Below, in pieces: positions 1-35,868 of a stretch of DNA of 43,188 nucleotides (the stretch's first letter is position 1; each line of letters starts with the position of its first letter). This DNA is from Pseudomonadota bacterium (lineage in GTDB: Bacteria; Pseudomonadota; Gammaproteobacteria; Burkholderiales; Burkholderiaceae_C), in NCBI GenBank assembly GCA_020161215.1, contig JAIUOM010000023.1:1-43188 (forward strand), read 5' to 3'. The translations under genes and the position numbers were made by a program. The notes beneath the pieces were generated by a model, which searched no databases, was not told where the DNA came from, and saw nothing but the letters and a program-made list of their open reading frames with translations.

Positions 1-551
1 AGATGCTGGAGCAGCCCGGCGCCGAGCGCATCACCACCGCCGCGCTGGCCGGGCGGCTGGAAGTAAGCGAGGCGGCGCTGTACCGCCATTTCGCCAGCAA
101 GGCGCAGATGTTCGAGGCGCTGATCGACTTCATCGAGGGCAGCGTGTTCGGCCTGATCAATCAGATCGGCGAGCACGAGGCGGCCGGCCGCCCGCGCGCC
201 GCGCGCATCGTCGCCATGGTGCTGCAGTTCGCCGAAAAGAACCCCGGCATGACGCGCGTGATGGTGGGCGATGCGCTGGTGTTCGAGCACGAGCGCCTGC
301 AGCAGCGCATGAACCAGTTGTTCGACAAGCTGGAGGCGGCGCTGCGCCAGTGCCTGCGCGAGGACACCCAGCCGCCGGCCAGCGCGCCGGCCGGCGCGCC
401 GCTGACGCCCGATGCCGATGCCCAGGTCGGCGCGGCGGTGCTCACCGCCTTCGTCCTGGGGCGCCTGCAGCGCTTCGCGCGCTCGGGGTTTCGCCGCGCG
501 CCCACCGAGCAGCTGGACTCTTGTGTGCGCAGAATGCTATCATTTGAATAG
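1..551 (+). CDS. slmA: Nucleoid occlusion factor SlmA (TetR family), 5' end outside window
   Basis: The visible 182 codons begin inside the N-terminal helix-turn-helix: ITTAALAGRLEVSEAALYRHF matches the SlmA recognition region, followed by SKAQMFEALIDFIE and, further on, NPGMTRVMVGDALVFEHERLQ and RINQLF-like segments typical of SlmA rather than a generic TetR protein. The Met at position 3 is probably internal, since family members carry some 15-20 more residues before this point; the true start lies upstream of the window. SlmA binds DNA sites over the chromosome and blocks FtsZ ring assembly over unsegregated nucleoids. The C-terminus (RRMLSFE) departs from the family and ends in a TAG lying inside a dispersed 28-nt repeat, so the end of the gene seems to have been set by that repeat. 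Confidence 0.85.
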   Translation, partial: MLEQPGAERITTAALAGRLEVSEAALYRHFASKAQMFEALIDFIEGSVFGLINQIGEHEAAGRPRAARIVAMVLQFAEKNPGMTRVMVGDALVFEHERLQQRMNQLFDKLEAALRQCLREDTQPPASAPAGAPLTPDADAQVGAAVLTAFVLGRLQRFARSGFRRAPTEQLDSCVRRMLSFE

Positions 552-575
552 CTGTCTAGGATTTGCCGGCGCCGG
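548..575 (-). repeat. 28-nt dispersed motif, copy A
   Basis: On the - strand this reads CCGGCG, 17 bases, then GCTAT, with the CC at positions 16-17 shared by all eight copies in the window. It is followed by an A/T-rich tail with a second GATAGC. The TAG of slmA (549-551) is the complement of the invariant CTA. Confidence 0.75.
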
Positions 576-626
576 CCTCACCGGGAAATCCCTTGCAAGT
601 TCGGTTTCCGAGGCCAGGGGAAGACC

Positions 627-1508
627 ATGAAACTGCTGCGCTACGGCCCACCCGGAAAAGAAAAGCCCGCCCTGCTGGACGCTGGTGGCGTGCTGCGCGA
701 TGTGTCGGCCCTGATCCCCGATATCGGCCCGGCCCAGCTGGGCGACGCGGCGCTGGCGCGCCTGGGCCGCCTGAAACCCGAGACCTTGCCCAAGGTGCGC
801 GGCCGCCCGCGCATCGGCTGCCCGGTGGCCGGCGTCGGCAAGTTCATCGCCATCGGCCTGAACTACGCCGACCACGCCGCCGAGGCTGGCCTGCCCGTGC
901 CCGGCGAGCCGGTGGTTTTCACCAAGGCGATTTCCTGCATCCAGGGTCCGGACGACCCGGTCATGCTGCCCAAGGGCTCCAAAAAAAGCGACTGGGAAGT
1001 GGAGCTGGGCGTGGTCATCGGCCGCACCGCGCGCCACGTGGCGCGCAAGGACGCGCTGACCCACGTCGCCGGCTACTGCGTGGTCAACGACGTCAGCGAG
1101 CGCGAATTCCAGATCGAGCGCGGTGGCACCTGGGACAAGGGCAAGGGCTGCGACACCTTCGGCCCCATTGGGCCCTGGCTGGTCACGCGCGATGAGGTGC
1201 CCAACCCCCAGCGGCTGGGGCTATGGCTCGATCTGAACGGCCAGCGCATGCAAGGCGGCAGCACCCGCACCATGGTGTTCGGCGTGGCCCAGCTCATCAG
1301 CTACGTCAGCCGCTTCATCACCTTGCAGCCCGGCGACGTGCTGACCACCGGCACGCCGCCCGGCGTCGGCATGGGCCGGCGCGATGCGGCCGGCCAGCCG
1401 GCCCCGCGCTACCTGAAAAAAGGTGACGTGATGACGCTGGGCATCGACGGCCTGGGCCAGCAACGGCAGCAGGTGGTGGCGTTTCGGGCGCCGACGGCCG
1501 CCCGATAG
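627..1508 (+). CDS. Fumarylacetoacetate hydrolase family protein
   Basis: 293 residues with a variable N-terminal part and the FAH catalytic fold from about residue 70 (GKFIAIGLNYADHAAEAG). The metal-binding signature WEVELGVVIG supplies the E-x-E pair and VVNDVSERE supplies the Asp, and TGTPPGVGMG closes the active site, so the enzyme should be a divalent-cation-dependent hydrolase or lyase of a 2-oxo or 1,3-diketo acid. The subfamily resembles ureidoglycolate lyase / 2,4-diketo-3-deoxy-L-fuconate hydrolase proteins, but the substrate cannot be read from sequence. The start is supported by AGGGGAAG seven to eight bases upstream. The gene stands between slmA and the TetR gene with no clear operon partner. 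Confidence 0.85.
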   Translation: MKLLRYGPPGKEKPALLDAGGVLRDVSALIPDIGPAQLGDAALARLGRLKPETLPKVRGRPRIGCPVAGVGKFIAIGLNYADHAAEAGLPVPGEPVVFTKAISCIQGPDDPVMLPKGSKKSDWEVELGVVIGRTARHVARKDALTHVAGYCVVNDVSEREFQIERGGTWDKGKGCDTFGPIGPWLVTRDEVPNPQRLGLWLDLNGQRMQGGSTRTMVFGVAQLISYVSRFITLQPGDVLTTGTPPGVGMGRRDAAGQPAPRYLKKGDVMTLGIDGLGQQRQQVVAFRAPTAAR

Positions 1509-1598
1509 GCGCCCGATCTGCGCTCAAATCTAGGGTAAATACCTAGCGATCCCTTCAGCCTGCGGCTTGGGTTGGGCCGAAAACTGGGTAAAAATAGC

Positions 1599-1618
1599 AC
1601 GACCGTTCGTTTTATTTT
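1599..1618 (+). promoter_or_regulatory. Candidate TetR operator and -10 element before the fatty-acid regulator gene
   Basis: ACGACCGTTCGT (1599-1610) is a near-perfect palindrome (10 of 12 positions symmetric) of the ACGAnCGnTCGT type used by several TetR repressors of fatty-acid degradation. It lies directly before TATTTT (1613-1618), a plausible -10 that is exactly seven bases from the ATG at 1626, so repressor binding would block transcription of its own gene. I see no convincing -35. Confidence 0.5.
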
Positions 1619-1625
1619 TACCGCC

Positions 1626-2282
1626 ATGGCCCGTGCATCCATCATTGCCTTGCGTCCCACCGCCGCCGCGGAGGGCGATAACCTGCCGCGCGCCCAAGCC
1701 AAGGGGCAGCAGACCAAGGCGGCCATCATCGACGCGGCGCTGCGCATGGCCGCGCAGGTCGGGCTGGAAGGCCTGTCCATCGGCGCGCTGGCCGAGGCCA
1801 TGTCGATGAGCAAGTCGGGCGTGTTCGCCCACTTCGGTTCGCGCGAGGAACTGCAGATCTCGGTGGTGCGCGAATACTACGCCCGCTTCGAGCAGGAGGT
1901 GTTCGCGCCCGCCATGGGCCTGTCGCGTGGCCTACCGCGTTTGCGCGCGCTGTTCGAGCACTGGATGCGCTACACCAGCGCCGAGCTGGATTCCGGCTGC
2001 ATCTTCATCAGCGGCGCGGTCGAGTTCGACGACCGCCCCGGCGCCGTGCGCGATGCCCTGGTGGCCGCCGTCGGCGCCTGGATGGACGCCATCACCCGCG
2101 CCATCGTGCAGGCCCGTGAAGAGGGCCATTTCCCACCCAAGGCCGACGAGCGTCAGATCGCCTTCGAGATTCACGCCCTGATCCTCGCGCTGCACTACGA
2201 GGCGCGCTTCCTGCAGCGCTCCGGCTCGACCGAGCGCGCGCTGCGCGGCTTCGACAACGTGCTCACCCGCCACGGCGCCTGA
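1626..2282 (+). CDS. TetR/AcrR family regulator of the adjacent fatty-acid degradation genes
   Basis: 218 residues from the ATG at 1626; an in-frame upstream ATG at 1572 would read through the candidate operator and add an unlikely N-terminus. The HTH is at roughly residues 32-75 (AALRMAAQVGLEGLSIGALAEAMSMSKSGVFAHFGSREEL, given here as its two halves AAQVGLEGLSIGALAEAM and SKSGVFAHFGSREEL). The rest is the helical ligand-binding domain ending LQRSGSTERALRGFDNVL. It lies 55 bp before an acyl-CoA dehydrogenase gene in the same direction, at the head of a beta-oxidation cluster, so a FadR/PsrA-like role as an acyl-CoA-responsive repressor is inferred from position. No ribosome binding site is evident; see the leaderless-start finding. 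Confidence 0.8.
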   Translation: MARASIIALRPTAAAEGDNLPRAQAKGQQTKAAIIDAALRMAAQVGLEGLSIGALAEAMSMSKSGVFAHFGSREELQISVVREYYARFEQEVFAPAMGLSRGLPRLRALFEHWMRYTSAELDSGCIFISGAVEFDDRPGAVRDALVAAVGAWMDAITRAIVQAREEGHFPPKADERQIAFEIHALILALHYEARFLQRSGSTERALRGFDNVLTRHGA

Positions 2283-2337
2283 GCCCGCTTTCTTCTTCCG
2301 TTTCCCACCCCGTTTCTTTCCGAGGAGCTCTCCCACC

Positions 2338-4134
2338 ATGCCCAGCTACACCCCCCCTCTGCGCGACATGCACTTCGTGCTCCACGAGGTGCTCCACACC
2401 GTCGACGAGCTCAAGCAGATCCCGCGCTACGCCGACCTGGACACCGACACGCTGAACGCCGTGCTGGAGGAAGGGGGCAAGTTCGCCGCCGAGGTCACCC
2501 AGCCCCTGAACCTGAGCGGCGACAGCGAGGGCTGCACGCTGGACAAGGCCACGCACGAGGTCACCACGCCCAAGGGCTTCAAGGCCGCCTACGCCCAGTA
2601 CGTCGAAGGCGGCTGGCCGGCGCTGTCGTGCGACCCCGAGTACGGCGGCCAGGGCCTGCCCCTGGTCACCAACCAGTGCTTCTACGAGATGCTGAACAGC
2701 GCCAACCAGGCCTGGACCATGTACCCGGGCCTGTCGCACGGCGCCTACGAAGCCCTGCACGCGCACGGCACCGAGGCGCAGAAGACCACCTACCTGCCCA
2801 AGCTGACCAGCGGTGTCTGGACCGGCACCATGTGCCTGACCGAGCCGCACTGCGGCACCGACCTGGGTCTGCTGCGCAGCAAGGCCGAGCCGCAGGCCGA
2901 CGGCAGCTACAAGATCACTGGCAACAAGATCTTCATCAGCGCCGGCGAGCACGACATGGCCGAGAACATCATCCACCTGGTGCTGGCCCGCCTGCCCGAC
3001 GCGCCGGCCGGCAGCAAGGGCATCAGCCTGTTCCTGGTGCCCAAGTTCCTGGTCAAGGCCGACGGTAGCCTGGGCGAGCGCAACCCGGTGTTCTGCACGG
3101 GGCTGGAGCACAAGATGGGCATCCACGGCAACGCCACCGCGCAGATCGCGCTGGACGGCGCCACCGGCACCCTGGTCGGCGAGCCCAACAAGGGCCTGGC
3201 CGCCATGTTCGTGATGATGAACGCCGCCCGCCTGGGCGTGGGCAACCAGTCGCTCGGCCTGACCGAGGTGGCCTACCAGAACGCGCTGGCCTACGCCAAG
3301 GACCGGCTGCAGATGCGCAGCCTCTCGGGCCCCAAGGCCAAGGACTTGCCGGCCGATCCGATCATCGTGCACCCCGACGTGCGCAAGATGCTGCTCACCG
3401 CCAAGGCCTACGCCGAAGGCGGCCGCGCGCTGTCGATCTACTCCACGCTCTTGCTCGACAAGGCCTTGCACCACCCCGACGAGAAGGTGCGCAAGGACAG
3501 CGACGACCTGGTGGCGCTGCTTACCCCCATCGTCAAGGCCTTCATCACCGACAACGGTTTTGCCGCCACCAACCACGCCATGCAGGTGTTTGGCGGCCAC
3601 GGCTACATCCATGAGACCGGCATGGAGCAGTACGTGCGCGATGCCCGCATCAACCTGATCTACGAAGGCACCAACACCGTGCAGTCGCTTGATCTGCTGG
3701 GCCGCAAGGTGCTGCACAACCAGGGCGCCACGCTGAAGAAATTTGGCAAGCAGATCGAGGCGCTGATCCGCGAGGAAGGCGTCAACGAGAAGATGAGCGA
3801 ATTCATCAACCCGCTGGCCGTCCTGGCCGACCAGATGACCAAGCTGACCACCGAAATCGGCTTCAAGTCCTTCGTCAACCCGGACGAGGTGGGCGGCGCC
3901 AGCGTCGACTACCTGCGCGTGGCCGGCCACCTGGTGTTCGGCTACTTCTTTGCCCGCATGGCCAGCGTGTCGCTGAAGAAAATCGCCGAGGGCAGCCAGG
4001 ACCCGTTCTACACCGCCAAGCTGCAGACCGCGCGCTTTTACTTCGCGCGCCTGTTCCCCGAGACCGCCTCGCTGATGCGCACCGCCCGCTCCGGCGTGGG
4101 CAACCTGCTGGCCACCGACGAGGCACTGGCATGA
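2338..4134 (+). CDS. Acyl-CoA dehydrogenase, large DmdC/FadE-like type
   Basis: 598 residues, the length of the acyl-CoA dehydrogenases with an extra C-terminal domain (the DmdC-like group), not the 380-residue short type. Seen in order: an N-terminal helical extension, the GWPALSCDPEYGGQGLP entry to the dehydrogenase fold, the flavin segment MCLTEPHCGTDLGLLRSKAEP (written as MCLTEPHCGTDLG plus LLRSKAEP), GNKIFISAGEHD, and the catalytic glutamate in YEGTNTVQSLD (E443). It should carry out FAD-dependent alpha,beta-dehydrogenation of acyl-CoA, the first beta-oxidation step, passing electrons to ETF. A good GAGGAG ribosome site precedes the ATG. The stop overlaps the next start by four bases (ATGA). 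The exact chain-length range is unknown. Confidence 0.9.
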   Translation: MPSYTPPLRDMHFVLHEVLHTVDELKQIPRYADLDTDTLNAVLEEGGKFAAEVTQPLNLSGDSEGCTLDKATHEVTTPKGFKAAYAQYVEGGWPALSCDPEYGGQGLPLVTNQCFYEMLNSANQAWTMYPGLSHGAYEALHAHGTEAQKTTYLPKLTSGVWTGTMCLTEPHCGTDLGLLRSKAEPQADGSYKITGNKIFISAGEHDMAENIIHLVLARLPDAPAGSKGISLFLVPKFLVKADGSLGERNPVFCTGLEHKMGIHGNATAQIALDGATGTLVGEPNKGLAAMFVMMNAARLGVGNQSLGLTEVAYQNALAYAKDRLQMRSLSGPKAKDLPADPIIVHPDVRKMLLTAKAYAEGGRALSIYSTLLLDKALHHPDEKVRKDSDDLVALLTPIVKAFITDNGFAATNHAMQVFGGHGYIHETGMEQYVRDARINLIYEGTNTVQSLDLLGRKVLHNQGATLKKFGKQIEALIREEGVNEKMSEFINPLAVLADQMTKLTTEIGFKSFVNPDEVGGASVDYLRVAGHLVFGYFFARMASVSLKKIAEGSQDPFYTAKLQTARFYFARLFPETASLMRTARSGVGNLLATDEALA

Positions 4135-4601
4135 GCACATTGGCATCAAAATCGGTGTTGACCGGCGCCCATAAATCCTGGGTAGCTATCGTTTTTGCAC
4201 TTGCCGCGACAACCGCGAGCGCTCAAATGAACCCCGTCGGCACCTGGCGCAGCATCGACGACGAGACCAAGCAACCCAAGGCGCAGATCGTCATCAGCGA
4301 GTCCGCCGGCGTGCTCACCGGGCGCATCGAGAAACTGCTGCGCCCCGGCGCCGACCAAAAGGCCGTGTGCGACCGCTGCACCGACGACCGCAAGGACAAG
4401 CCGGTGCTGGGCATGGAAATCATCCGAGGTGCCAAGAAAGCCGAGGGCAAGGAAGTCTGGGAGGGCGGCCGCATTCTCGACCCCGAGAAAGGCAGCACCT
4501 ACGGCCTGCGCCTGACCCCCATCGAGGGCGGCGCCAAGCTGGAAGTGCGCGGCTCCATCGGCCCCTTCGGCCGCACCCAGACCTGGGTGCGGGTGCCCTG
4601 A
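4131..4601 (+). CDS. Secreted DUF2147 domain protein
   Basis: 156 residues. The first ~32 form a Sec signal peptide (hydrophobic WVAIVFALAATTASAQ, cleavage after Ala-Gln or nearby). The mature part carries the DUF2147 hallmarks: GTWRSIDDETKQPKAQI at the start, a CDRC pair, KPVLGMEIIRGAKK, WEGGRILDPEKGSTYG, and the terminal RGSIGPFGRTQTWVRV. The family is a small beta-rich periplasmic protein of unknown function. The start codon overlaps the stop of the acyl-CoA dehydrogenase, implying translational coupling. Odd: bases 4162-4189, encoding part of the signal peptide, are a copy of the dispersed 28-nt motif found mostly between genes elsewhere in the window. Confidence 0.85.
   Translation: MSTLASKSVLTGAHKSWVAIVFALAATTASAQMNPVGTWRSIDDETKQPKAQIVISESAGVLTGRIEKLLRPGADQKAVCDRCTDDRKDKPVLGMEIIRGAKKAEGKEVWEGGRILDPEKGSTYGLRLTPIEGGAKLEVRGSIGPFGRTQTWVRVP
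4162..4189 (+). repeat. 28-nt dispersed motif, copy B (inside a signal peptide coding region)
   Basis: CCGGCG at 4162, CC at positions 16-17, GCTAT at 4185-4189. This copy is in frame inside the DUF2147 gene and encodes about TGAHKSWVAI, leading into the hydrophobic core of the signal peptide. Confidence 0.75.
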
Positions 4602-4655
4602 CGCCGGCCCGAAACCGGCCGCGCCACGCGCCCCAAGAACCACAGGAAACATGAC

Positions 4656-7150: not shown

Positions 7151-7178
7151 ACCCAACAGCGCTCAACAGGAGCTATCG

Positions 7179-8384: not shown

Positions 8385-8426
8385 GTCCGCACCGCCCTGA
8401 CCCAGCACCTCCGGAGGCACCTCGCC

Positions 8427-9342: not shown

Positions 9343-10176
9343 ATGAGCTTGACTTCTTCCCATCCCTTCGACGAAGCGCTGCGCCTGGTGCCAGGCGCCG
9401 ACCCCGGCACCTTCAGCGGCCAGCCACACCCAGCCTACGGCAACATGGTGGGCCCGTTCGGCGGCATCACGGCGGCGCAGCTGCTGCAGGCCGTGTGGCT
9501 GCACCCGGACCGCCTGGGCGAGCCGGTGGCCTTGACGGTGAACTTCGCCGCCGCCTTGCGCGACGCGCCGTTTCACATCCAGGCGCGGGCCGCGCGCACC
9601 AACCGCTCCACCCAGCACTGGGTGCTGGAGATGCGCCAGGTCGGCGAGGACGGCGCCGAGACCACGGTCATCACCGGCAGCGCCGTCACCGCCGTGCGGC
9701 GCGGCACCTGGAGCTCGGCCGACGCGCCCCGGCCCGATGTGCCGCGCCCCGACAGCATCGCCCGTCCCGAGGTGCCGCGCAGCGTGCGCTGGATCGAGCG
9801 CTACGACATGCGCCCCATCACCGGTCACATGCCGATGCGGTGGGACGGCAGCGAATCCAGCAGCCTGACCCAGCTGTGGGTGCGCGACGAGCCGCCGCGC
9901 CCGCTGGATTTCGCCAGCCTGACGGCGCTGGCCGACGTGTTTTTTCCGCGCGTGTGGCTGCGCCGCGCCGTGCGCACGCCGATCGGCACGGTGTCGATCA
10001 CCATCTACTTTCACGCTGGCGCCGACGAGCTGGCCGCCACCGGCACCGGCTACTTGCTGGGCCAGGCGCGCTCGCAAGCTTTTTTCAACGGCTTCTTCGA
10101 CCAGAGCGCCGAGCTGTGGAACGAGGCCGGCCATCTGGTCGCGACCACGCACCAGATCGTGTATTTCAAGGAATAA
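9343..10176 (+). CDS. Acyl-CoA thioesterase, double-hotdog (TesB-like / 4HBT_3) family
   Basis: 277 residues from the ATG at 9343; an in-frame upstream start at 9196 would overlap the previous gene by 119 bases. The N-terminal hotdog shows GNMVGPFGGITAAQLLQAVW and VALTVNFAAALRDAPFHI, and the second hotdog shows LDFASLTALADVFFPR and VSITIYFHA. This arrangement belongs to the thioesterase-like superfamily that hydrolyses medium or long acyl-CoA. Lying in a beta-oxidation cluster, it may relieve CoA sequestration. It starts 28 bp after the hydrolase gene and lacks a Shine-Dalgarno sequence; a -10-like CACACT sits seven bases upstream. Confidence 0.8.
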   Translation: MSLTSSHPFDEALRLVPGADPGTFSGQPHPAYGNMVGPFGGITAAQLLQAVWLHPDRLGEPVALTVNFAAALRDAPFHIQARAARTNRSTQHWVLEMRQVGEDGAETTVITGSAVTAVRRGTWSSADAPRPDVPRPDSIARPEVPRSVRWIERYDMRPITGHMPMRWDGSESSSLTQLWVRDEPPRPLDFASLTALADVFFPRVWLRRAVRTPIGTVSITIYFHAGADELAATGTGYLLGQARSQAFFNGFFDQSAELWNEAGHLVATTHQIVYFKE

Positions 10177-10186
10177 TGCCTTTCAG

Positions 10187-10214
10187 CCGGCGCGGGAATT
10201 GCCTGATATGCTAT
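10187..10214 (+). repeat. 28-nt dispersed motif, copy C
   Basis: CCGGCG at 10187 and GCTAT at 10210-10214, with CCT at positions 16-18 and a TGAAAC tail. It begins 10 bp after the stop of the thioesterase gene. Confidence 0.75.
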
Positions 10215-10270
10215 TGAAACAGTAGTGAACCGCGCCTTTCTTTCACCTCCTTCAACCTCCATCCCACCCC

Positions 10271-11736: not shown

Positions 11737-11753
11737 TGGTTGCTATCGTTGGT

Positions 11754-11781
11754 GTAGCGCTTCAGGGTGATTGCACGCCGG
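11754..11781 (-). repeat. 28-nt dispersed motif, copy D
   Basis: On the - strand CCGGCG, then 17 bases, then GCTAC (the only copy ending in C). It begins 17 bp after the stop of the thioesterase gene, between convergent genes. Confidence 0.65.
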
Positions 11782-11818
11782 CCAACGGCTGAAAAGCTCT
11801 GAAATTTGGGCGAAAGCC

Positions 11819-14184: not shown

Positions 14185-14241
14185 GGGGCGTGCGCCGGAA
14201 CCTGCGGTTCAGGCAGAAAAGTGGGTCTATTTGACCGGATG

Positions 14242-14269
14242 CCGGCGTGAATATTGCCTGGCATGCTAT
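14242..14269 (+). repeat. 28-nt dispersed motif, copy E
   Basis: CCGGCG at 14242, CCT at positions 16-18, GCTAT at 14265-14269, GGAATC tail. It lies 57 bp after the LysR stop in the 203-bp gap before the convergent YciA gene; nothing else is recognisable in that gap. Confidence 0.7.
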
Positions 14270-14387
14270 GGAATCAGGAATTATGAAGTTGTACCTGGGA
14301 TGGTGCGGGAGGCAGGACAACGCTCTCCCGGCGTCGACATTCCGGGGTTGCTCAACGGCCGGACCGTGACCGCCCGCGGTGCCGCGC

Positions 14388-21970: not shown

Positions 21971-22003
21971 ACGGACAGTCTCCTTGGTTTCACATCAAAA
22001 ATA

Positions 22004-22031
22004 ATAGCTGGTCAGGCTTTGTGGGCGCCGA
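22004..22031 (-). repeat. 28-nt dispersed motif, copy F
   Basis: On the - strand TCGGCG, CCT at positions 16-18, GCTAT, then ATTTTT. It lies between dctM and dctP, in the sense direction of the operon. Confidence 0.7.
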
Positions 22032-22047
22032 CCAACAGCAAAAAACA

Positions 22048-23346
22048 TCAGTATCCGAGCACGCGCGGCAGCCACAACGCCAGCTCGGGCCAGATGATCA
22101 CGGCCACCATCACCAGGCCCATGGCCAGCAGCATCGGGCCGACCCAGCGCACGGTTTCCTCCATGCGTACGTTGGCGATGCGGCACGACACCATCAGGTT
22201 GACGGCCAGCGGCGGGGTGAACTGGCCCAGCGCCACCTTCAGCGTCAGCAGCACGCCGAACCACACCGGGTCCCAGTTGTAGTGCTGCACGATGGGCCAG
22301 AGCAGTGGCACGAAGATCAGGAAGATGGACACGCCGTCGAGGAACATGCCGACGGTGATCAGCAGCAGGATGAGCAGGGACAGCACGCCGTACTCGCCCA
22401 GGCCCGAGTTGACGATGGCCTTGGTGACCGGATCGATCACCCCCAGGGTGGAGAGCGAGAACGCAAAAATGCCGGCCAGCGACACCACCAGCAAGATCAC
22501 CGCCGACAGCTCGCCCGATTCCTTCAGGATCGGGAACAGGTCGCGCACGCCCATGCTGCGGTGGATCACCATGCCGACGAACAGGCCGTAGAACACCGCC
22601 ACCACCGCCGCCTCGGTGGGCGTGAACCAGCCGGCGCGCATGCCGCCCAGGATCACCACCGGCGCGGCCAGGCCCCAGATCGCCTCGCGGAAACTCTTGC
22701 CCAGCGGCGGGCGCGGCAGGCCGGCTTCCAGGTGGCCCATGCCGTGCCGGCGCGCCATCCACACGGCCGGCACGATCAGCGCCAGGCCGGCCAGCACGCC
22801 GGGAATCATGCCGGCGGCAAACAACGCCGGCACCGACGCGCCCGGCACCAGCACCGAGTAGATGATGAAGGCCACCGAGGGCGGAATCAGGATGTCGGTG
22901 GCCGCCGCCGCGCCCACCACGCTGGCCGAATAGCTGGCCGGGTAGCCGGCGCGGTTCATGGCCGCGATCATCACGCCGCCCACCGCCGCCGCGTTGGCCG
23001 GGCCCGAGCCGGAGATGCCGCCCATGAACATGGCCACCGCAATCGCCACCAGCGGCAGCATGCCCGGGCCGCGACCGACCAGGGCCACGGCGAAGTTGAC
23101 CAACCGCAGCGCCACGCCCGAGCGGTCGAAGATCGAGCCCACCAGCACGAACATGGGCACCGCCAGCAGTGGGTATTTGCCCAGGCCGGCGTAGAAGTTT
23201 TGCGGCACCGCCAGCAGCCCGAACCAGGGCGATTCGGCATTCGCCAGCGCGATCGCCGCCGTGCCGGCCAGGCCCAGCGCGGCGCCGATGGGCACGCCCA
23301 GCAGCATGGTGATGATGAAAACGGCGAACAGCAGCGTGGCAATCAT
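22048..23346 (-). CDS. dctM: TRAP transporter large permease DctM
   Basis: 432 residues, about 12 membrane helices, the normal length. Signatures include LFAVFIITMLLGVPIGAALG at the N-terminus, GGISGSGPANAAAVGGVMI, ATDILIPPSVAFIIYSVLVP and the C-terminal ALGQFTPPLAVNLMVSCRIA. It forms the ion-coupled (usually Na+) transport core in the inner membrane. Its start overlaps the dctQ stop by four bases (ATGA). Confidence 0.92.
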   Translation of the reverse strand: MIATLLFAVFIITMLLGVPIGAALGLAGTAAIALANAESPWFGLLAVPQNFYAGLGKYPLLAVPMFVLVGSIFDRSGVALRLVNFAVALVGRGPGMLPLVAIAVAMFMGGISGSGPANAAAVGGVMIAAMNRAGYPASYSASVVGAAAATDILIPPSVAFIIYSVLVPGASVPALFAAGMIPGVLAGLALIVPAVWMARRHGMGHLEAGLPRPPLGKSFREAIWGLAAPVVILGGMRAGWFTPTEAAVVAVFYGLFVGMVIHRSMGVRDLFPILKESGELSAVILLVVSLAGIFAFSLSTLGVIDPVTKAIVNSGLGEYGVLSLLILLLITVGMFLDGVSIFLIFVPLLWPIVQHYNWDPVWFGVLLTLKVALGQFTPPLAVNLMVSCRIANVRMEETVRWVGPMLLAMGLVMVAVIIWPELALWLPRVLGY

Positions 23347-26662: not shown

Positions 26663-26725
26663 GTGGGGGATTTCAAGGCGTGGGTCAATAAGCCCGCGCC
26701 GCTGCAAGCAACCGGCCGTGCGGCA

Positions 26726-28030: not shown

Positions 28031-28052
28031 GAGGGCTCCTTGTGGGTGAGGA

Positions 28053-29102: not shown

Positions 29103-29206
29103 GGCCGCCAATCTAATCCCTGATCGTGACAACTATATGACCGTTTCGTGGCCCCCCGGTGCGGGTAAATCCGGACCGGAGCGGTCTTTGGCGCCGGGAC
29201 GGATGC

Positions 29207-29212
29207 GAGAAT
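29207..29212 (+). promoter_or_regulatory. Candidate -10 element of a leaderless pyrC start
   Basis: GAGAAT, seven bases before the pyrC ATG at 29220, with no Shine-Dalgarno sequence. The -35 region (CTTTGG near 29186) is weak. Confidence 0.35.
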
Positions 29213-29219
29213 CCGCGCC

Positions 29220-30260
29220 ATGACCGCCCCCCAGACGCTGACCCTCACCCGCCCCGACGACTGGCACCTGCACGTGCGCGACGGCGCCGCGCTGGCCGCC
29301 GTGGTGCCGCACACCGCGGCGCAGTTTGCCCGCGCCATCATCATGCCCAACCTGCGGCCGCCGGTGACCACAACCGATCAAGCGCTGGCGTACAAAGCGC
29401 GCATCCAGCAAGCCGTGCCCGCCGGCGTGGCGTTCGAGCCGCTGATGACGCTGTACCTCACCGACAACACGCCGCCCGATGAAATCGCGCGCGCCAAAGT
29501 GGCCGGCGTGGTCGCCCTCAAGCTCTACCCGGCTGGCGCCACCACCAACAGCGATGCGGGCGTGACCGACGTGCGCAAGACCTACCAAACGCTGGAAGCC
29601 ATGCAGCGCGCCGGCCTCAAGCTGCTGGTGCACGGTGAGGTGACTGATGGTGAGATCGACCTGTTCGACCGCGAAGCCGTGTTCATCGACCGCGTGATGA
29701 CCCCGCTGCGCCGCGATTTCCCCGAACTGAAGGTGGTGTTCGAGCACATCACCACGCAGGAGGCCGCGCAGTATGTGGCGAGTGCCGATGCGCACACCGC
29801 CGCCACCATCACCGCCCACCACCTGCTGTACAACCGCAACGCCATCTTTCTGGGCGGCATCCGCCCGCACTACTACTGCCTGCCCGTGCTCAAGCGCGAA
29901 GTGCACCGCCAGGCCTTGGTAAAGGCCGCCACCAGCGGCAACCCCCAGTTCTTTCTGGGCACCGACAGTGCCCCCCACCCCGCGCAGCTGAAAGAACACG
30001 CCAGCGGCTGCGCCGGCTGCTACACCGCCCACGCCGCGCTAGAGCTGTACGCCAGCGCGTTTGAAGCGGCCGGCGCGCTGGACAAACTGGAAGGCTTTGC
30101 CAGCCACCACGGCCCCGACTTCTACTGCCTGCCACGCAACACGGGCACTGTTACCCTGCGCCAGGAAAGCTGGACGCCGCCTGAGAGTTATCCGTTTGGT
30201 GATGCGGAGGTCAAACCGCTGGCGGGCGGGGAGGTGTTGGGGTGGAGGCTGAGTCCCTGA
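29220..30260 (+). CDS. pyrC: Dihydroorotase
   Basis: 346 residues, the usual length for the class II (E. coli-type) enzyme. Zinc ligands H16 and H18 in [10 protein letters not shown], the carboxylated lysine K101 in [19 protein letters not shown], further His residues in LLVHGEVTD and [14 protein letters not shown], and the Asp in [16 protein letters not shown]. It converts carbamoyl-aspartate to dihydroorotate, step three of pyrimidine synthesis, in the cytoplasm. Divergent from the ugp-like operon; followed 16 bp later by the NYN gene. Confidence 0.95.
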
Positions 30261-30276
30261 ACATGGAGTAGTGAGC

Positions 30277-31092
30277 ATGAGTGACGCCGACCCACGACCC
30301 TGGCGCATTGCGCTGCTGATTGACGCCGACAACGCGCCGGCCGACCTGATCGACGAGATCCTGACCGAGCTGTCCACACTCGGCGTTATCAATGTGCGTC
30401 GGGCTTACGGCAACTGGACCAAGGTGGCGCTGAATGGCTGGCAGGACCGGCTGCTTGAGTTCGCCATCCGGCCCATGCAGCAGTTCGACTACTCCAAACG
30501 CAAGAACGCCAGCGACATGGCCATGACCGTGGACGCGATGGAGTTGCTTTACACCGAGCACCCGGATGCGTTCGGCATCGTCTCGTCCGACGCCGACTTC
30601 ACGCCCTTGGTGATGCATCTGCGCGCCAAGGGCGCTGCGGTGTATGGGTTTGGGGCCGCGCAAACGCCCCTGCCTTTTGTCAACGCCTGCTCGCGCTTTT
30701 TGTATCTGGAAGCGCTCAAGGAGGCCCACGTGGGCGACGAAATAGAGTTCGTCGGCAAGGCCGCGGCGCAGCCCGGGGATGACTCAACACCGGCAACCAA
30801 GGCCTCTGTCACCGCCGCCCGTGTGCGTGTACCGACCTCCAAATTGCGTCAGGACACCGCACTCATGAACCTGCTGCGCGATGCCGTAAACGCCACTGCA
30901 GACGAGTCGGGGTGGGCAAAAGTAGGGGCTATCGGCACTCAAATCAGCAATAAGGCCAGCTTCGACGCGCGGAACTATGGCTATGCGACGCTCAGCAAGT
31001 TGCTCGTAGCGATCGAGGCCTTTGATTTTCGCGATGAAGGCACGTCACGCGTGAGTGTGCGCGACAAGCGCAACAGCAGGCGGCCCGCTTGA
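30277..31092 (+). CDS. NYN-domain nuclease-like protein with C-terminal LOTUS (OST-HTH) domain
   Basis: 271 residues from the ATG at 30277 (GTG at 30271 possible). The NYN/PIN-like domain (residues 8-150) shows IALLIDADNAPADLIDEIL with D16 and D18, YGNWTKVALNGWQ, KRKNASDMAMTVDAMELL and VSSDADFTPLVMHL with D105 and D107, the acidic set expected for a metal-dependent RNase. Residues ~190-260 (ALMNLLRDAV, GWAKVGAIGTQI, RNYGYATLSKLLVAIEAFDF) fit a LOTUS/OST-HTH RNA-binding module. Such proteins are widespread but their bacterial RNA targets are unknown. It is 16 bp after pyrC and may be co-transcribed. Confidence 0.82.
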   Translation: MSDADPRPWRIALLIDADNAPADLIDEILTELSTLGVINVRRAYGNWTKVALNGWQDRLLEFAIRPMQQFDYSKRKNASDMAMTVDAMELLYTEHPDAFGIVSSDADFTPLVMHLRAKGAAVYGFGAAQTPLPFVNACSRFLYLEALKEAHVGDEIEFVGKAAAQPGDDSTPATKASVTAARVRVPTSKLRQDTALMNLLRDAVNATADESGWAKVGAIGTQISNKASFDARNYGYATLSKLLVAIEAFDFRDEGTSRVSVRDKRNSRRPA

Positions 31093-31250
31093 GTCGACGG
31101 ACAAACCTCTTCACCCCACCGCAAACGCATCCCCAAAATACCCTTTCCCAGGCTGGTGGTGCGCAATCGCGATGACCGGGCCCTCTCACAGCTGTCCCCT
31201 ATCCGCAATGTCGTCGTGCGCGGCAGACGCATCCTCCCGGTCCCGAACAC

Positions 31251-31282
31251 TTGTTATTCGTCGCCTTTTCAGCAACAATTGT
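31251..31282 (+). promoter_or_regulatory. Promoter and candidate operator of the nucleotidyltransferase/HEPN module
   Basis: TTGTTA (31251-31256) and AACAAT (31274-31279) are separated by exactly 17 bp. The perfect palindrome ACAATTGT (31275-31282) lies over the -10, suiting repression by the HTH-bearing first protein. The ATG is six bases further on, with no Shine-Dalgarno sequence. The rest of the 196-bp gap after the NYN gene shows nothing recognisable. Confidence 0.5.
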
Positions 31283-31288
31283 CGCCTA

Positions 31289-31915
31289 ATGAGCAACGAC
31301 TTGTTGATGGATCAGCTGTTTCCAGCGGCGCGGCAGCGTGTGCTGGCGTTGCTGTTGCTGCAGCCAGAGTCCGCGTTTCATCTGCGTGAGCTGGCGCGCT
31401 TGACTGGCAGCCACGCCGGTACGCTGGCGCGTGAGGTGGATAAGCTGGCGCGCACTGGCCTGCTGCGGCGCAGCGAGCTGGGCAATCAGGTGCGCTACCA
31501 GGCCAACATCGGGCACCCGCTGTTTGGCGAGCTGGCGGCACTGTTTCGCAAGACGCATGGTGTGGTGCCGGCGCTGCGCGAAGCCTTGGCGCCGCTGGGT
31601 GCGCAAATTCAACTGGCGCTGGTGTTCGGTTCGGTGGCGCGCGGCGCTGCCTCGACGGGCAGCGATGTGGATGTGCTGGTGCTGGGCAGCGTGGGCTTTG
31701 TGGAACTGGCGCAGGCGGTGTTTCCGCTGCATGCCACGTTGGGCCGCGAAGTCAACCCGGTGCTTTACACCCCCGAGGAATTCGCCGCACGCGTGCGCAG
31801 CGGCGATGCCTTTGCGCGTGATGTGCTGCGCAAACCCCAGTTGTTCGTGAAAGGAGACGCCGATGAGCTTGCAGAACTTGCTGGCGATTGGGCGGCTGCA
31901 AGCCCACCAACCTGA
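31289..31915 (+). CDS. HTH-nucleotidyltransferase protein, probable MNT-type antitoxin
   Basis: 208 residues from the ATG at 31289; the longer frame reaching 31055 would overlap the NYN gene. Residues ~12-75 are a winged HTH (RQRVLALLLLQPESAFHLRE, GSHAGTLAREVDKLARTGLL, QVRYQANIGHPLF). Residues ~105-190 are a minimal nucleotidyltransferase with a textbook GS-x10-DxD motif: G114, S115, D126, D128. In MntA/HepT (type VII) systems the nucleotidyltransferase adenylylates and silences a HEPN toxin. The next gene overlaps this one by 53 bases and encodes a HEPN-like protein, so an antitoxin role with autorepression through the HTH is inferred. Confidence 0.75.
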   Translation: MSNDLLMDQLFPAARQRVLALLLLQPESAFHLRELARLTGSHAGTLAREVDKLARTGLLRRSELGNQVRYQANIGHPLFGELAALFRKTHGVVPALREALAPLGAQIQLALVFGSVARGAASTGSDVDVLVLGSVGFVELAQAVFPLHATLGREVNPVLYTPEEFAARVRSGDAFARDVLRKPQLFVKGDADELAELAGDWAAASPPT

Positions 31916-32312
31916 TGCGGCGGGCATCGCCAAGTTGTTGCAGGCGGCGCGGCGCAACCTGGCCGATGCTGGCATCGCACAGCTCAGTGCGGACAATCGC
32001 TTTGACGCCGCCTACAAATGCATCATGCAGTGCGCGATGATGGGCTTATGGGCCAATGGTTTTCGCACTTCGACCAGCCAGCCTGGGCATCACCAGACGG
32101 CCATCCAAAGCCTGAAACTGACGATGGGTGTGGCGCAGCCAGACGTGATTGTGCTGGACGCACTGCGCCGCCAGCGCAACCTGAGCGATTACGAGGGCGA
32201 CCCCGTGTCCACGCCAACGCTGCAGGCTTGCATCGAGCAGTCCGCCAAGCTGCTGGCGCACACCGAAGGCTGGCTGCGTGCCCATCGCCCCGATTTGTTG
32301 ACCGCGGCATGA
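31863..32312 (+). CDS. HEPN-like protein, probable toxin partner
   Basis: 149 residues, all alpha by composition. LQAARRNLADAGIAQLSADN, RFDAAYKCIMQCAMMGLWAN and the motif LRRQRNLSDYEGD align with HEPN domains. In HEPN ribonucleases the motif is R-x4-6-H; here R105 is followed after four residues by Tyr110 instead of His. It overlaps the preceding nucleotidyltransferase gene by 53 bases in another frame, and an in-gene GGAGACGCCG sits just before its ATG, so the two are translationally linked. Whether it is an active RNase, a Tyr-based target of adenylylation, or an inactive regulator is open. Confidence 0.7.
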   Translation: MSLQNLLAIGRLQAHQPDAAGIAKLLQAARRNLADAGIAQLSADNRFDAAYKCIMQCAMMGLWANGFRTSTSQPGHHQTAIQSLKLTMGVAQPDVIVLDALRRQRNLSDYEGDPVSTPTLQACIEQSAKLLAHTEGWLRAHRPDLLTAA

Positions 32313-32404
32313 GTGCGGGCCAGGGAAACCTGTTCCAGTAGGAAAAGCGCGTTCATTGGTGGACGCGTGGCGGTCGGTATGCTGAGGGCGATGCTGGTCA
32401 CCCT

Positions 32405-33697
32405 TCACCGCACCGCGAACTCCTCCGTGCAATGCCTGCGCCCATGCTCGTGGTACGCAATCGCCAGGATCGGGCCGACGGACAGCAGCAGCAGCCCCCA
32501 GGGCAGCGGCACGCCCAGCGACACCGCCACCGGCGCCAGGGCGATGCAGGCGATGCAGACGAGGGGCAGGTACCAGTCCGACTGCCGCACGCGCGAGATG
32601 AAGCGGTACAGCACCCACAGCGAGATCACGTAGATGCTTTCGGCCACCGCCACGGTGGCAATGGCGTAGGTGGCCGAGACGCCGTGCGCGGCGGCTTCGC
32701 CCGCGGCCGCCGGGGCGTGGGCGGAGGCTTCCTTGGCGGCCTTCAGCACGTCGGCCACCACCTCCAGCCCGCTGCCCACGGCGGCCAGCGCCGCGAACAG
32801 CACCACGTGGCCATAGCCCCACGGAAAGGCGCGATCACGGTGCTGGTGCAGCGCCTCGGCCGAAGGCACCAGAAAGTACATCCACCACAGGCAGAACACC
32901 AGCAGCATGCAGCCAAAGCCGACCAGGCTCACGTCCCAGGACCAGGCCCAGTCCATCGCGGCCCAGATGCTGGCCACGGAATTGCTGGCGCCCAGAATGC
33001 CCTCGCCCAGCACGATGATGACCAGCAGGCTGTAGCGCTCGGCGATGTGGTGCGCATGCCAGGGTGTGGGTGCGGCGCGCTCGGCCCACACCGGCACGCT
33101 GAATTCGCCCAGCCACAGCAGGCCAAACCCCATCCACATCGCGCCGCCCGCCAGCGCGCCGGTCTGCGTGCCCAGCAGAAACAGCAGCCAGCCGACCTGC
33201 ACCAAGGCGATGCCCGTGGCGTAGCGCAGGCAGGTGCGCTGGCACTCCGGGTGGCCGCGGGCGGCACGCACCCATTGCAGACACAGCGCCACGCGCATCA
33301 CCAGGTAGCCGGCGACACCGGCGTTGAATTTCCCCTCGAAAAAGCCCGGCACGCCCGCCGCCAGCGCCAGCACGCCCACCATCTGCGCCATGGTCAGCAC
33401 GCGGAACGTGGGCGTGTCGTCGTCGTAGGCCGAGGCGAACCAGGTGTAGTTCATCCACGCCCACCAGATGGCGCTGAAGGCAATGGCAAACCCGACCAGC
33501 GCGCTGCCGGTGTGGTGCGCCACGATGCCGTGGTGCAGCTGCGCGGCGGCCTGCGCGATGGCGACCACGAACACCAGGTCGAACAGCAGCTCCAGCGGCG
33601 TGGCCGCGCGGTGCGGCTCATGGATGTCGCGGCCCTGGGTGCGGCGCGGTCGGCCGTGGGGCGGGGCAGGGGGCGTGGACAAGGCGGTGGAGGCCAT
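32405..33697 (-). CDS. Low temperature requirement A (LtrA) family membrane protein
   Basis: 430 residues from the ATG at 33697; the frame stays open to 34456 but that part lies antisense to the DUF3025 gene and the 28-nt motif. About 11-12 membrane helices. LtrA signatures: TPLELLFDLVFVVAIAQAAA near the N-terminus, WWAWMNYTWFASAYDDDT, and HIAERYSLLVIIVLGEGILG in the middle. The family's biochemical role is unknown; it was named for growth of Listeria at low temperature. TATACT on the - strand (33732-33737) is a good -10 upstream. Convergent with the HEPN gene across 92 bp that show nothing recognisable. Confidence 0.85.
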   Translation of the reverse strand: MASTALSTPPAPPHGRPRRTQGRDIHEPHRAATPLELLFDLVFVVAIAQAAAQLHHGIVAHHTGSALVGFAIAFSAIWWAWMNYTWFASAYDDDTPTFRVLTMAQMVGVLALAAGVPGFFEGKFNAGVAGYLVMRVALCLQWVRAARGHPECQRTCLRYATGIALVQVGWLLFLLGTQTGALAGGAMWMGFGLLWLGEFSVPVWAERAAPTPWHAHHIAERYSLLVIIVLGEGILGASNSVASIWAAMDWAWSWDVSLVGFGCMLLVFCLWWMYFLVPSAEALHQHRDRAFPWGYGHVVLFAALAAVGSGLEVVADVLKAAKEASAHAPAAAGEAAAHGVSATYAIATVAVAESIYVISLWVLYRFISRVRQSDWYLPLVCIACIALAPVAVSLGVPLPWGLLLLSVGPILAIAYHEHGRRHCTEEFAVR

Positions 33698-33782
33698 GGC
33701 GAGCGAAGGACTGGGGCAGGAGCGGGGCGCCAGTATAGGGCAGCCCCCGGGCCACTGGTTGCATGGTGAAATAAGCCACAGG

Positions 33783-33810
33783 CCGGCGCGGGCATTGCCA
33801 AATAAGCTAT
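33783..33810 (+). repeat. 28-nt dispersed motif, copy G
   Basis: CCGGCG at 33783, CC at positions 16-17, GCTAT at 33806-33810, CAAATG tail. It lies in the 177-bp divergent gap between the LtrA and DUF3025 genes. Confidence 0.75.
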
Positions 33811-33861
33811 CAAATGAAGAGCGTTGAGGAGGCGTGGTGAGGCGACCGTCACGTGCTGTGG

Positions 33862-33867
33862 CAGCAT
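33862..33867 (+). promoter_or_regulatory. Candidate -10 element of a leaderless start
   Basis: CAGCAT, exactly seven bases before the ATG at 33875, with no ribosome site. The match to TATAAT is weak on its own; its value is in sharing the spacing of four others. Confidence 0.25.
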
Positions 33868-33874
33868 CGGCGGC

Positions 33875-34684
33875 ATGACCCGTGCATCGGCTTCCTCTCG
33901 CGCTGCCCCGGCCCAGGCCGCGGCGCCAAGCCTCGATTGGGCGCGGCCCTGGTGGCAGGCGCTGCGGCCCTGGGGCGGGCCGGCGTTGGCCGCCTGGCAG
34001 GCTGGCGCCGAGGTGGGGCAGGCGCTGAACCGCGTGGCCACGGCGGCGCCGCGCTTCGTGCCGCAGTCGGCCCTGCCGGCCGGCGTGGCGTATGAAGACT
34101 TCGTGCACACGCAGGGCGCGGTGCCCACGCGCGACAACCCGCACGATTTCTTCAACGGCCTGATCTGGCTGGCCTGTCCGCGCACCAAGCGGCGCCTGAA
34201 CCAGCTGCAGGCCGCCGAAATCGCCCGCGATGGCGTGCGCGCCACGCGCGGCCCGGTGCGCGACGCCATTACCCTGCTGGACGAGAACGGCGCCCTGCTG
34301 TCCGCCCCCGAGCCGCTGTGGCAGGCCCTGGCCGGGCGGCGCTGGGCCGAACTGTTCGGGCCCATGCGGCCGCTGTGGCGCCAGGCGCACCTGTGGCTGC
34401 TGGGCCACGCCACGCTGGAAAAGCTGCTCGCGCCCTACCCCTCGATCACCGCCCACGTGCTGCCCGCCCCGCCCGGGCTGGACAGCCTGGCCCAGGCCGA
34501 CGCCTGGCTGGCCGAATGGCTCAGCGCCGAGCGGCTGGCCGCCAAACCCTTCGCGCCGCTGCCCGTGCTGGGCGTGCCCGGCTGGTGGCCCCCCAACGAG
34601 GCGCCCGGTTTCTACCAGGACGTGCGCGTGTTCAGACCCCTGCCGGTGCGCATCCCGGGAGCCGGCGGCACGGCCGACACCTGA
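33875..34684 (+). CDS. DUF3025 domain protein
   Basis: 269 residues from the ATG at 33875 (an in-frame upstream ATG at 33824 adds 17 residues unlike the family). The DUF3025 core is clear: FVPQSALPAGVAYEDFVHTQ, GAVPTRDNPHDFFNGLIWLA, CPRTKRRLNQLQAAEIAR, RGPVRDAITLLDENGALL and a C-terminal WWPPNEAPGFYQDVRVFRP. No signal peptide or membrane helix. The function of the family is unknown. The conserved acidic/histidine cluster in TRDNPHDFFN suggests an active site, but that is inference. Confidence 0.82.
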   Translation: MTRASASSRAAPAQAAAPSLDWARPWWQALRPWGGPALAAWQAGAEVGQALNRVATAAPRFVPQSALPAGVAYEDFVHTQGAVPTRDNPHDFFNGLIWLACPRTKRRLNQLQAAEIARDGVRATRGPVRDAITLLDENGALLSAPEPLWQALAGRRWAELFGPMRPLWRQAHLWLLGHATLEKLLAPYPSITAHVLPAPPGLDSLAQADAWLAEWLSAERLAAKPFAPLPVLGVPGWWPPNEAPGFYQDVRVFRPLPVRIPGAGGTADT

Positions 34685-34758
34685 CCAGGCTGCTCATCGA
34701 CAAGCGGGGGCGGATGCCTGGAAGCGCAAGACCCCACGCATGCTGTCCCCGACCTACC

Positions 34759-34944
34759 AAAACGCCTTCAAAAATGCCCAACCGTTCGCGTTGAGCCCTT
34801 CGACAAGCCTGATACCGATTGGCGTTCAAACTACAAGAGCCGTTCAGGCTGAGCCTGTCGAAGCCCGGCGCGGCGTTTCGACAAGCCTGTCCTGAGCCCG
34901 TCGAAGGGCTCAACGCGAACGGTTTGATGCTTTTGAACGCCTTT
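34759..34944. repeat. Large imperfect inverted repeat (REP-like) after the DUF3025 gene
   Basis: ACCGTTCGCGTTGAGCCCTT and the next four bases (34781-34804) are perfectly inverted at 34900-34923, and similarity continues outwards on both sides to about 34759 and 34944. Inside are two further copies of the GAGCCTGTCGAA / TTCGACAAGCCTG theme facing each other. No transposase is nearby. This is the class of GACAGGCTCAG-type REP sequence seen in many proteobacteria. Confidence 0.65.
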
Positions 34945-35007
34945 TAGTATGAGTGGTCGAAAACGACGCTGCCATCAAGAACGAATGGCCGCGGAGCAGG
35001 CCAGCTC

Positions 35008-35127
35008 AGCAGACGCCGTGGAGAGGGCTTCGCCCGGCCACTGGCGTCGCCCCCTTGAGGGGGGAGGCGCAACATCGCGCAGCGAGTGGAGCCTGGGGGT
35101 GGGCTCACTTCCTGCCTGGGGGTGGGC
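35008..35127 (-). repeat. Post-stop stem-loop element, copy 2
   Basis: Read on the - strand it starts right after the TAA of the TOPRIM gene with GCCCACCCCCAGGC (the 15-base unit occurs twice, 35092-35106 and 35115-35129), then the hairpin TCCCCCCTCAAGGGGGCGA and GTGGCCGGGCGAAGCC, ending GTCTGCTGA. It aligns with 7056-7150, which likewise follows a stop codon in the sense direction. With the REP-like repeat it fills the whole 34685-35127 gap; no gene is seen there. Confidence 0.6.
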
Positions 35128-35805
35128 TTATTCGCCTCCAAAAACCTCCAGCACCGCCTGCATTTGCGCCGCCGTCACCGCATCCGCGCGGCGCGTGGCC
35201 GCCTCCACGCAGCTGGCGCGCAGCACGGCCGGCGGCAGGCTGCCCAGGCCGCGGAACATGCCGTCGGACATCGACACATCTCCGCGCGCCAGGGTGTGCT
35301 GGCGCAGTGCGCGCATCTGCTCTGGCGTGTAGGCCAAGTGCTCGCTCACTTCTCCGCTGCCTGAGTCGGCCACGCGCAGTAGGCCCATGGGCGCGCGCAC
35401 CATCCACACGTGGCCCTGGGTCAGCAGGTCGGGCGCGAAGCGCCGCAGGTACAGCAGCACCAGCGCGCCAATGTGAATGCCGTCGGCGTCCGGGTCGAAC
35501 AACAGGCACAGGCGCTCGAAGCGGCGCGCGGCGAGCCGCTCGGCGCCAGTGTCCAGCGCCGACGGCCAGCCCATGGCCTGCGCCAGCTGCGGGTACAGCG
35601 GGTAGCCCAGCACCCGCGTGGGGCTGGCGCGCCAGGCGTTCAGTGGCTTGCCCTGCAGCGGCAGCACGGCTTGGCGGCGCGCGTCGCGCACGGCGGCCAC
35701 CGAGTGGGCGGCCGAATCGCCCTCGACCAGAAACAGCTCGCAGCCCGCGCCATGTTCGATGCTGTCGATCAACTTGACGCGGGCCTGGCTGGGGAAGGGG
35801 GGCAT
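35128..35805 (-). CDS. Stand-alone TOPRIM protein resembling the C-terminal part of GyrB/ParE
   Basis: 225 residues from the ATG at 35805. The TOPRIM domain has all metal ligands in GyrB/ParE style: CELFLVEGDSA (E28), VLPLQGKPLNAW (compare the LRGKILN of ParE) and FDPDADGIHIGALVLLYLRR (D104, D106, D108), then GHVWMVRAPMGLLRV. The C-terminal FRGLGSLPPAVL corresponds to the YKGLGEM segment. The GHKL ATPase and transducer domains, about 400 residues in a full GyrB, are missing: only 106 bp separate this start from argE. The frame is intact and ligands conserved, which argues against a decaying fragment. Function unknown; it might bind a GyrA/ParC partner or act as a nuclease-like TOPRIM enzyme. 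Confidence 0.75.
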   Translation of the reverse strand: MPPFPSQARVKLIDSIEHGAGCELFLVEGDSAAHSVAAVRDARRQAVLPLQGKPLNAWRASPTRVLGYPLYPQLAQAMGWPSALDTGAERLAARRFERLCLLFDPDADGIHIGALVLLYLRRFAPDLLTQGHVWMVRAPMGLLRVADSGSGEVSEHLAYTPEQMRALRQHTLARGDVSMSDGMFRGLGSLPPAVLRASCVEAATRRADAVTAAQMQAVLEVFGGE

Positions 35806-35840
35806 GCGTGGGAGAAAAAAAGAACAAAAACAGCCGTCAG

Positions 35841-35868
35841 CCGGCGTGGATCAATCCAAGATAACTAT
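35841..35868 (+). repeat. 28-nt dispersed motif, copy H
   Basis: CCGGCG at 35841, CC at positions 16-17, ACTAT at 35864-35868, CAAAAG tail. It lies between the TOPRIM and argE genes, antisense to both. Confidence 0.65.

Follow-up and report, generated by a model that had tools for sequence, protein, structure and literature searches.

A 28-nt motif that occurs eight times in a 43,188-nt stretch of DNA from a member of the Pseudomonadota (contig JAIUOM010000023.1 of assembly GCA_020161215.1; genome label G000, 4.52 Mb), the whole of which is referred to here as the window, is the core of an element of about 65 bp composed of a left A/T tract, a variable middle and a right module, GCTAY-N9-AGY. 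The element is a tag present hundreds of times per genome in many, but not all, Comamonadaceae, and its distribution is patchy. Its copies keep a fixed spacing and are conserved in place, and the middle differs by lineage while being nearly uniform within a genome. The middle appears to have been rewritten across copies in concert, and a role resembling that of the signals used in DNA uptake is, tentatively, the best candidate for its function.

All eight copies reported in the initial annotation were recovered in the window with their coordinates and strands (Table 1). The pattern YCGGCG-N9-CCW-N5-RCTAY had no further match there, and 100 dinucleotide shuffles of the window gave no match, with none expected by chance. 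As this pattern was derived from the same eight copies, the remainder of the genome provides the independent test, and a scan of the 4.52 Mb returned 293 exact copies, 285 of them beyond the window; the reversed pattern returned 5. The claim of invariant internal spacing was likewise borne out. Within the 706 kb of distinct sequence fetched from this genome, where 81 spacing combinations were compared, CGGCG-N(a)-CC-N(b)-GCTAY was found 76 times at a=9 and b=6, and none of the other 80 combinations gave more than 5 matches. Gene calls made with our own codon-usage script, not a published gene finder, gave the same division into six intergenic copies and two touching coding sequence. Two further claims held in part. 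The 28 nt stood as a core but not as the full length, since conserved columns run from about −22 to +40 relative to it. CGGCG and CC, which are invariant among the selected eight, are not so across 138 copies found by profile, of which 79 carry both, 23 only CGGCG, 17 only CC and 19 neither.

The anatomy of the element was determined from 70 aligned copies and a profile search. Numbered relative to the 28-mer, the left part is T-rich at −22/−21, mostly AAAA or TTTT from −13 to −10 and rich in G and C from −7 to −5. The middle spans about 30 bp, and the right module, a near-palindrome, consists of GCTAY at 24–28, A/T at 31–33 and AGY at 38–40. The profile search of the fetched stretches yielded 137 copies against one in the reversed control, and 134 copies lie in 705,933 bases of this genome after removal of a doubled 10-kb overlap. 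Half of the stretches had been chosen around known copies, so the density from the whole set is too high; 20 contigs picked regardless of matches held 37 elements in 283,749 bases, corresponding to about 590 per genome. The middle is nearly uniform within this genome, with a GCGC-type middle in roughly 8–10 of the 138 own copies as judged by eye, some of them similar in sequence to that of the relative G019. A lone element with a differing middle, GACGTTAAAACCCCCCAGCGCTTTAAGCTAT, lies at about position 2112 of locus L061 of this genome. Some copies end in GGAG with a start codon immediately after. The element holds 45–53 bits of information, where about 13–14 bits would suffice to mark that many sites, an excess that would better fit a copying or recombination drive, or several bound parts, than one ordinary regulator.

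Table 1. Positions and surroundings of the eight elements in the window.
Element	Extent	28-mer	Strand	Context
1	536..598	548-575	-	Overlaps 3' end of slmA-like gene 3-551
2	4139..4201	4162-4189	+	Within N-terminal signal-peptide-like part of DUF2147 open reading frame 4131-4601
3	10164..10226	10187-10214	+	Between acyl-CoA thioesterase and enoyl-CoA hydratase genes; orthologous element in G010
4	11742..11804	11754-11781	-	Convergent gene gap
5	14219..14281	14242-14269	+	Convergent gene gap; imperfect right module
6	21992..22054	22004-22031	-	Between the transporter genes for DctM and DctP; G013 and G010 hold orthologous elements
7	33760..33822	33783-33810	+	Divergent gene gap; none found at same place in G013
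8	35818..35880	35841-35868	+	ACTAT replaces GCTAT

The spelling of the middle was compared across the family. The exact CGGCG dialect is at background in 24 genomes of the same genus (0–4 matches each, controls 0–7), and a stricter own-dialect pattern matched 160 times in this genome and once across 298 other sampled family genomes. CGGCG-N9-CC-N6-GCTAY occurred 268 times in one Polaromonas metagenome-assembled genome (MAG; control 2), with at most 3 matches each in six other genomes (controls 10–23). The CGGCG-N9-CC middle is a lineage dialect, abundant among the genomes searched only here and in this Polaromonas MAG. Two same-genus relatives, G010 and G013, have palindromic middles and carry GCGC-N4-AGCTAY-NNWWWNNNN-AGY 548 and 604 times, respectively, with a control of 0 in both.

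The right module on its own (AGCTAYNNWWWNNNNAGY) extends the picture to the whole family. By hand count, at least 40 matches are present in 88 of 299 family genomes, 11–39 in 13 and at most 10 in 198; controls were mostly below 25, and one genome, G316 (40 matches, control 33), is not distinct from its control. Counts differ even within genera (628, 98 and 673 in genus g55; 174, 2 and 1 in g68). At least one match to the right-module expression, in some cases perhaps by chance, was found in 40 of 80 named Comamonadaceae and related loci. Inspection of 29 of these 40 showed a readable left tract and middle in Acidovorax, Polaromonas, Rhodoferax and Xylophilus; the full element was less clear in Comamonas and Curvibacter, and Variovorax had one doubtful place per locus. 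The Hydrogenophaga (n=6) and Ramlibacter (n=4) loci gave no match to this expression. A Xylophilus copy (L199, position 14212) has the inverted repeat CCGGC...GCCGGC as its middle, a possible further dialect.

Conservation in place was examined in orthologous adjacent gene pairs, 93 shared with G013 and 88 with G010, from 15 fetched regions each. The regions had mostly been selected with an element of this genome at their centre and also supplied the negatives, and gaps were at least 40 bp in both genomes; the median protein identity of the two relatives to this genome is 79–81%. Gaps holding an element here were also occupied in 21 of 24 cases in G013 and 18 of 19 in G010, against 2 of 29 and 5 of 33 for gaps without one (Fisher p 2e-9 and 1e-8). 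Orthologous elements had the same orientation in 37 of 39 cases (19/21 and 18/18), and their distance to at least one neighbouring gene agreed within 5 nt in 8 of 19 (G013) and 10 of 18 (G010). These shared intergenic places and orientations, together with the retained spacing of the modules, support the earlier suggestion of selection on a bound site.

Module by module, in samples that are small (19 orthologous pairs with G013 and 18 with G010), the right modules were 72% and 69% identical (shuffled pairs, 62% and 61%; z 4.3 and 3.3), and the left outer parts 44% and 45% identical (shuffled pairs, 37% and 38%; z 2.1 and 2.6). The flank past the right module exceeded the shuffles in G013 (z 3.3) but stayed at their level in G010 (0.1). 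For neither half of the middle did orthologous copies clearly surpass shuffled pairs in similarity (z 1.3 and 1.0; 0.6 and −0.9). Since the outer parts are alike and the middles are not, common descent remains recognisable in the outer parts but not in the middle, suggesting that the middle has been rewritten in place and in concert across copies.

Two sites in the window were followed across the genus. For element 1, reading by eye showed that 6 of the 15 same-genus regions have an element at the corresponding gene end, that of G013 with a different middle; the gene it overlaps matches the NCBIfam model of the nucleoid occlusion factor SlmA above cut-off. The DUF2147 site is occupied in 10 of 15 same-genus regions (G013, G009, G018, G015, G010, G019, G021, G014, G023 and G003), and the regular expression found no element there in G022, G011, G004, G007 and G016. 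A looser pattern shows occupation in 22 of 77 sufficiently long named loci; the Polaromonas MAG that shares the dialect is not among these 22. The element itself encodes the signal-peptide-like N-terminal part of the DUF2147 reading frame (PF09917), and in Acidovorax and Polaromonas loci GGAG and ATG lie inside the middle of the element.

Within each genome the elements are scattered in both orientations, mainly intergenic and away from divergent promoters, at a density of roughly one per 3–8 kb. Divergent gaps are avoided here (8/110 intergenic elements against 72/323 gaps, counting gaps of at least 60 bp, p 0.0003), in G013 (2/56 against 29/135, p 0.002) and in G010 (4/75 against 29/159, p 0.008), and a promoter function was set aside on this ground. 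Convergent gaps are preferred, with p values of 0.02 in this genome, 0.005 in G010 and 0.10 in G013, and 20 of the 134 elements of this genome lie inside called genes. The strands are nearly equal among the GCGC-type copies of G010 and G013, and the 100 listed of the 275 forward matches in G010 span the first 1.45 of 3.9 Mb, which is the genome-average density; on the equal strands and on this density among the forward matches listed, a replication-polarised signal was likewise set aside.

The element is probably a bound, double-stranded DNA recognition element of three parts and about 65 bp, as judged from the properties of its sequence. Fixed spacing, A/T columns, the lack of pairing covariation, the lack of strand preference in the relatives and an unconserved stem together argue for double-stranded DNA read by a protein. 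RNA structure, which the initial annotation had offered beside a bound site, found no support. In the covariation check, the strongest correlations listed were mostly between near neighbours and did not form a set of complementary pairs; the few longer-range correlations (among them 3-15, 3-12, 0-12, 4-12, 4-15 and -3-20) form no helix, and we read them as traces of minority middles. Several columns take mainly A or T and others mainly G or C, which, with the correlations between neighbours, suggests reading through the minor groove and not base pairing. Folding of 60 middles per genome against mononucleotide shuffles gave a mean z of −0.57 in this genome and of −1.85 and −2.00 in two relatives. 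With a middle stem in the two relatives but not here, no stem is conserved across the family. The right module is weakly self-complementary (mean z −2.2 in this genome, minimum free energy (MFE) −2.5 kcal/mol). Rfam 15 at the gathering score gave no match in the window, and only RNase P and one tRNA in the loci of eight relatives. With no pairing covariation, conserved middle stem or Rfam match, RNA structure was set aside.

How such a tag could change its central spelling at so many sites may be pictured as follows. A sequence-specific protein or complex would bind the element; a shift in its specificity would be followed by rewriting of the middle at every site, through selection or recombination drive, with the outer modules left as they were. 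The uptake sequences of Neisseriaceae and Pasteurellaceae offer an analogy, under which the element could serve as a self-recognition tag in natural transformation; matching DNA would be taken up preferentially, and this preference would drive the middles to change in concert. Such change at hundreds of sites has one precedent known to us, the dialects of uptake sequences, and an uptake-signal-like role is therefore preferred: on this analogy it is the single most likely job of the element, and a tentative assignment. More tentatively still, the Comamonadaceae may possess a third, independent uptake-signal system, with a much longer, three-part element whose specificity-giving middle has changed in concert, more than once, across hundreds of fixed sites per genome, the GCGC-type and CGGCG-type middles being the candidates for such rewriting. 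If the role is not in uptake, the element would represent a chromosome-wide recognition element of a new class, showing this same behaviour of its dialects.

Comparison with the known uptake systems shows likeness and difference. The DNA uptake sequence (DUS) has 10–12 bases, a role in transformation that has been shown, and dialects that differ by few bases; the uptake signal sequence (USS), like the present element, has A/T-rich flanks around a lineage-specific core. The present element shares with the uptake type a strong genome-wide over-representation and lineage dialects that are nearly uniform within a genome. Its conserved columns extend over about 65 bp (45–53 bits) rather than forming a short core of about 9–12 bp, and it is therefore not filed as a DUS or a USS. 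In contrast to DUS, the whole middle differs between dialects and the element is known here from its sequence alone; in contrast to the shorter, simple core of USS, it has a long middle and a right near-palindrome. DUS dialects are conserved within species and different between species of Neisseriaceae, and the element resembles DUS in its very many copies per genome and its dialects (PMC3630211). Divergent dialects are also described for the USS of Pasteurellaceae (PMC12616744), which has about 1300 copies in H. influenzae and the simple core AAGTGCGGT (PMC5217627).

Several observations weigh against an uptake-signal-like role. The distribution of ComEC (PF03772) does not follow that of the element. 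It was matched in 287 of the 299 family genomes; by hand counts, no match was found in 3 of 88 carriers and in 9 of 211 other genomes, and G081, listed as 100% complete, has 73 element matches and no ComEC match. Being nearly universal, ComEC is uninformative as a marker of competent carriers. No reader protein was found, ComEC being the only part of the uptake machinery searched. The element is also about twice as long as the longest known uptake sequences, which range up to about 30 bp. In the close pair G009 and G023, five elements were no better conserved than their flanks, with 9 changes in 275 element bases, 8 of them in columns of low conservation; at five elements and nine changes this pair is too small for a test of selection over short times. 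Finally, elements in tandem gaps of this genome lie 49 with and 24 against the gene direction (p 0.005), whereas the two relatives are unbiased (19:20 in G013 and 20:25 in G010, together 39:45).

The main rival holds that the element is the binding site of a chromosome-organising protein, nucleoid-associated or condensin-loading, whose DNA-reading part evolved and was followed by the sites; this we consider possible, yet unlikely. It would account for the occupation of hundreds of neutral intergenic places, and the double-stranded DNA character, the density given above, the near-equal strands, the spread of the listed forward matches in G010 as expected without polarity, the fixed-spacing A/T tracts and the site-by-site retention all agree with it. 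However, changing many bases at hundreds of sites by per-site selection alone would seem hard, the element is scarce in most sampled species (the 198 of 299 with at most 10 matches), even within a genus, and its information is far beyond what location would need.

A repeat of the repetitive extragenic palindrome (REP) or miniature inverted-repeat transposable element (MITE) kind, moved by a transposase in trans, retained largely through inheritance and of little or no use to the host, is improbable. REP elements with their REP-associated tyrosine transposases (RAYTs) form hundreds of short, mostly intergenic repeats, and the high copy number, excess information, patchy distribution, avoidance of divergent gaps and preference for convergent gaps seen here fit that description. 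New insertions do not explain, however, why elements stand at the same places and in the same orientation across species with only the middle differing. Moreover, Y1 transposases (PF01797) do not track the carriers: no match was found in the carriers G015, G016, G020 and G021 (86%, 99%, 76% and 99% complete), whereas the non-carriers G004 and G011 do have a match. Unlike REP, the element has no hairpin conserved between species and no link to a Y1 transposase, and its middle changed in place. A REP/RAYT assignment was set aside on the lack of a palindromic stem in the middle of this genome's copies (mean z −0.57) and on the four carriers without Y1. G013 has 20 Y1 matches, several identically scored, suggesting a multi-copy element, which we take to be of the IS200/IS605 type.

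That the element acts at the transcript level, as a terminator, a hairpin stabilising mRNA or a translation element, is very improbable: the tandem bias of this genome, the GGAG before a start codon in some copies and the weak self-complementarity of the right module speak for it, but the bias is absent from G013 and G010 and there is no conserved middle stem, pairing covariation or Rfam match, an intrinsic terminator in particular having been set aside on the weak A/T-rich right hairpin (MFE about −2 to −2.5) and the 39:45 orientation.

Motif pairs related to the element are already in print. Tong, Schliekelman and Mrazek (2017; PMC5217627), in the text available, list among 'potential novel motifs' GCTTAT(N)5AAGCG in Acidovorax ebreus (114 copies) and ATAGCT(N)22CAAAAG in Polaromonas naphthalenivorans (125 copies). 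The first pair corresponds to the GCGC-type middle on the opposite strand and lies in a similar gene context (44 convergent, 4 divergent and 59 co-oriented), with no function stated for either pair in that text. In our loci L103–L231, CGCTT-N5-ATAAGC gave 8 matches against 0 and 1 at neighbouring spacings. The second pair carries ATAGCT, the right end of the element; CTTTTG-N22-AGCTAT gave 1 match in the same loci against 1 and 1 in the spacing controls, so that identity with the element is not shown thereby. The two are treated there as separate motifs of two genomes, and the available text contains no joint element, dialects or orthologous places (PMC5217627). The betaproteobacterial repeat BRE (Hot et al., 2011; PMC3110155) is, like the element, dispersed and mostly intergenic, and occurs in Bordetella and some Comamonadaceae. 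It is set apart by its description in the available text alone: about 90 bp, in Bordetella 75–91 bp with 69% G+C and an occurrence also in tandem arrays, and 1–29 copies per genome. Open PubMed Central papers yielded no account of the complete element, of its dialects or of its change in place, and repeat strings matched only unrelated work there. Related motif pairs have thus been in print since 2017, and the dialect behaviour was not found in the print available. The statement in the initial annotation, that GCTATCAAA sequences occur in Comamonadaceae genomes with no described function, proved right.

Hundreds of long, fixed sites that change their central spelling together amount to a natural experiment in the co-evolution of a DNA-reading protein and its sites. 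With 88 carriers (at least 40 modules) and 198 genomes with at most 10 among the 299 sampled, it should be possible to find the reader protein through gene presence and co-variation. If the sites organise the chromosome, they would point to an undescribed protein. If the uptake reading is true, the CGGCG type in this genome and in the Polaromonas MAG would represent shared or repeated evolution of one receptor specificity, and sites that steer DNA uptake would account for a barrier limiting the exchange of genes across a large environmental family.

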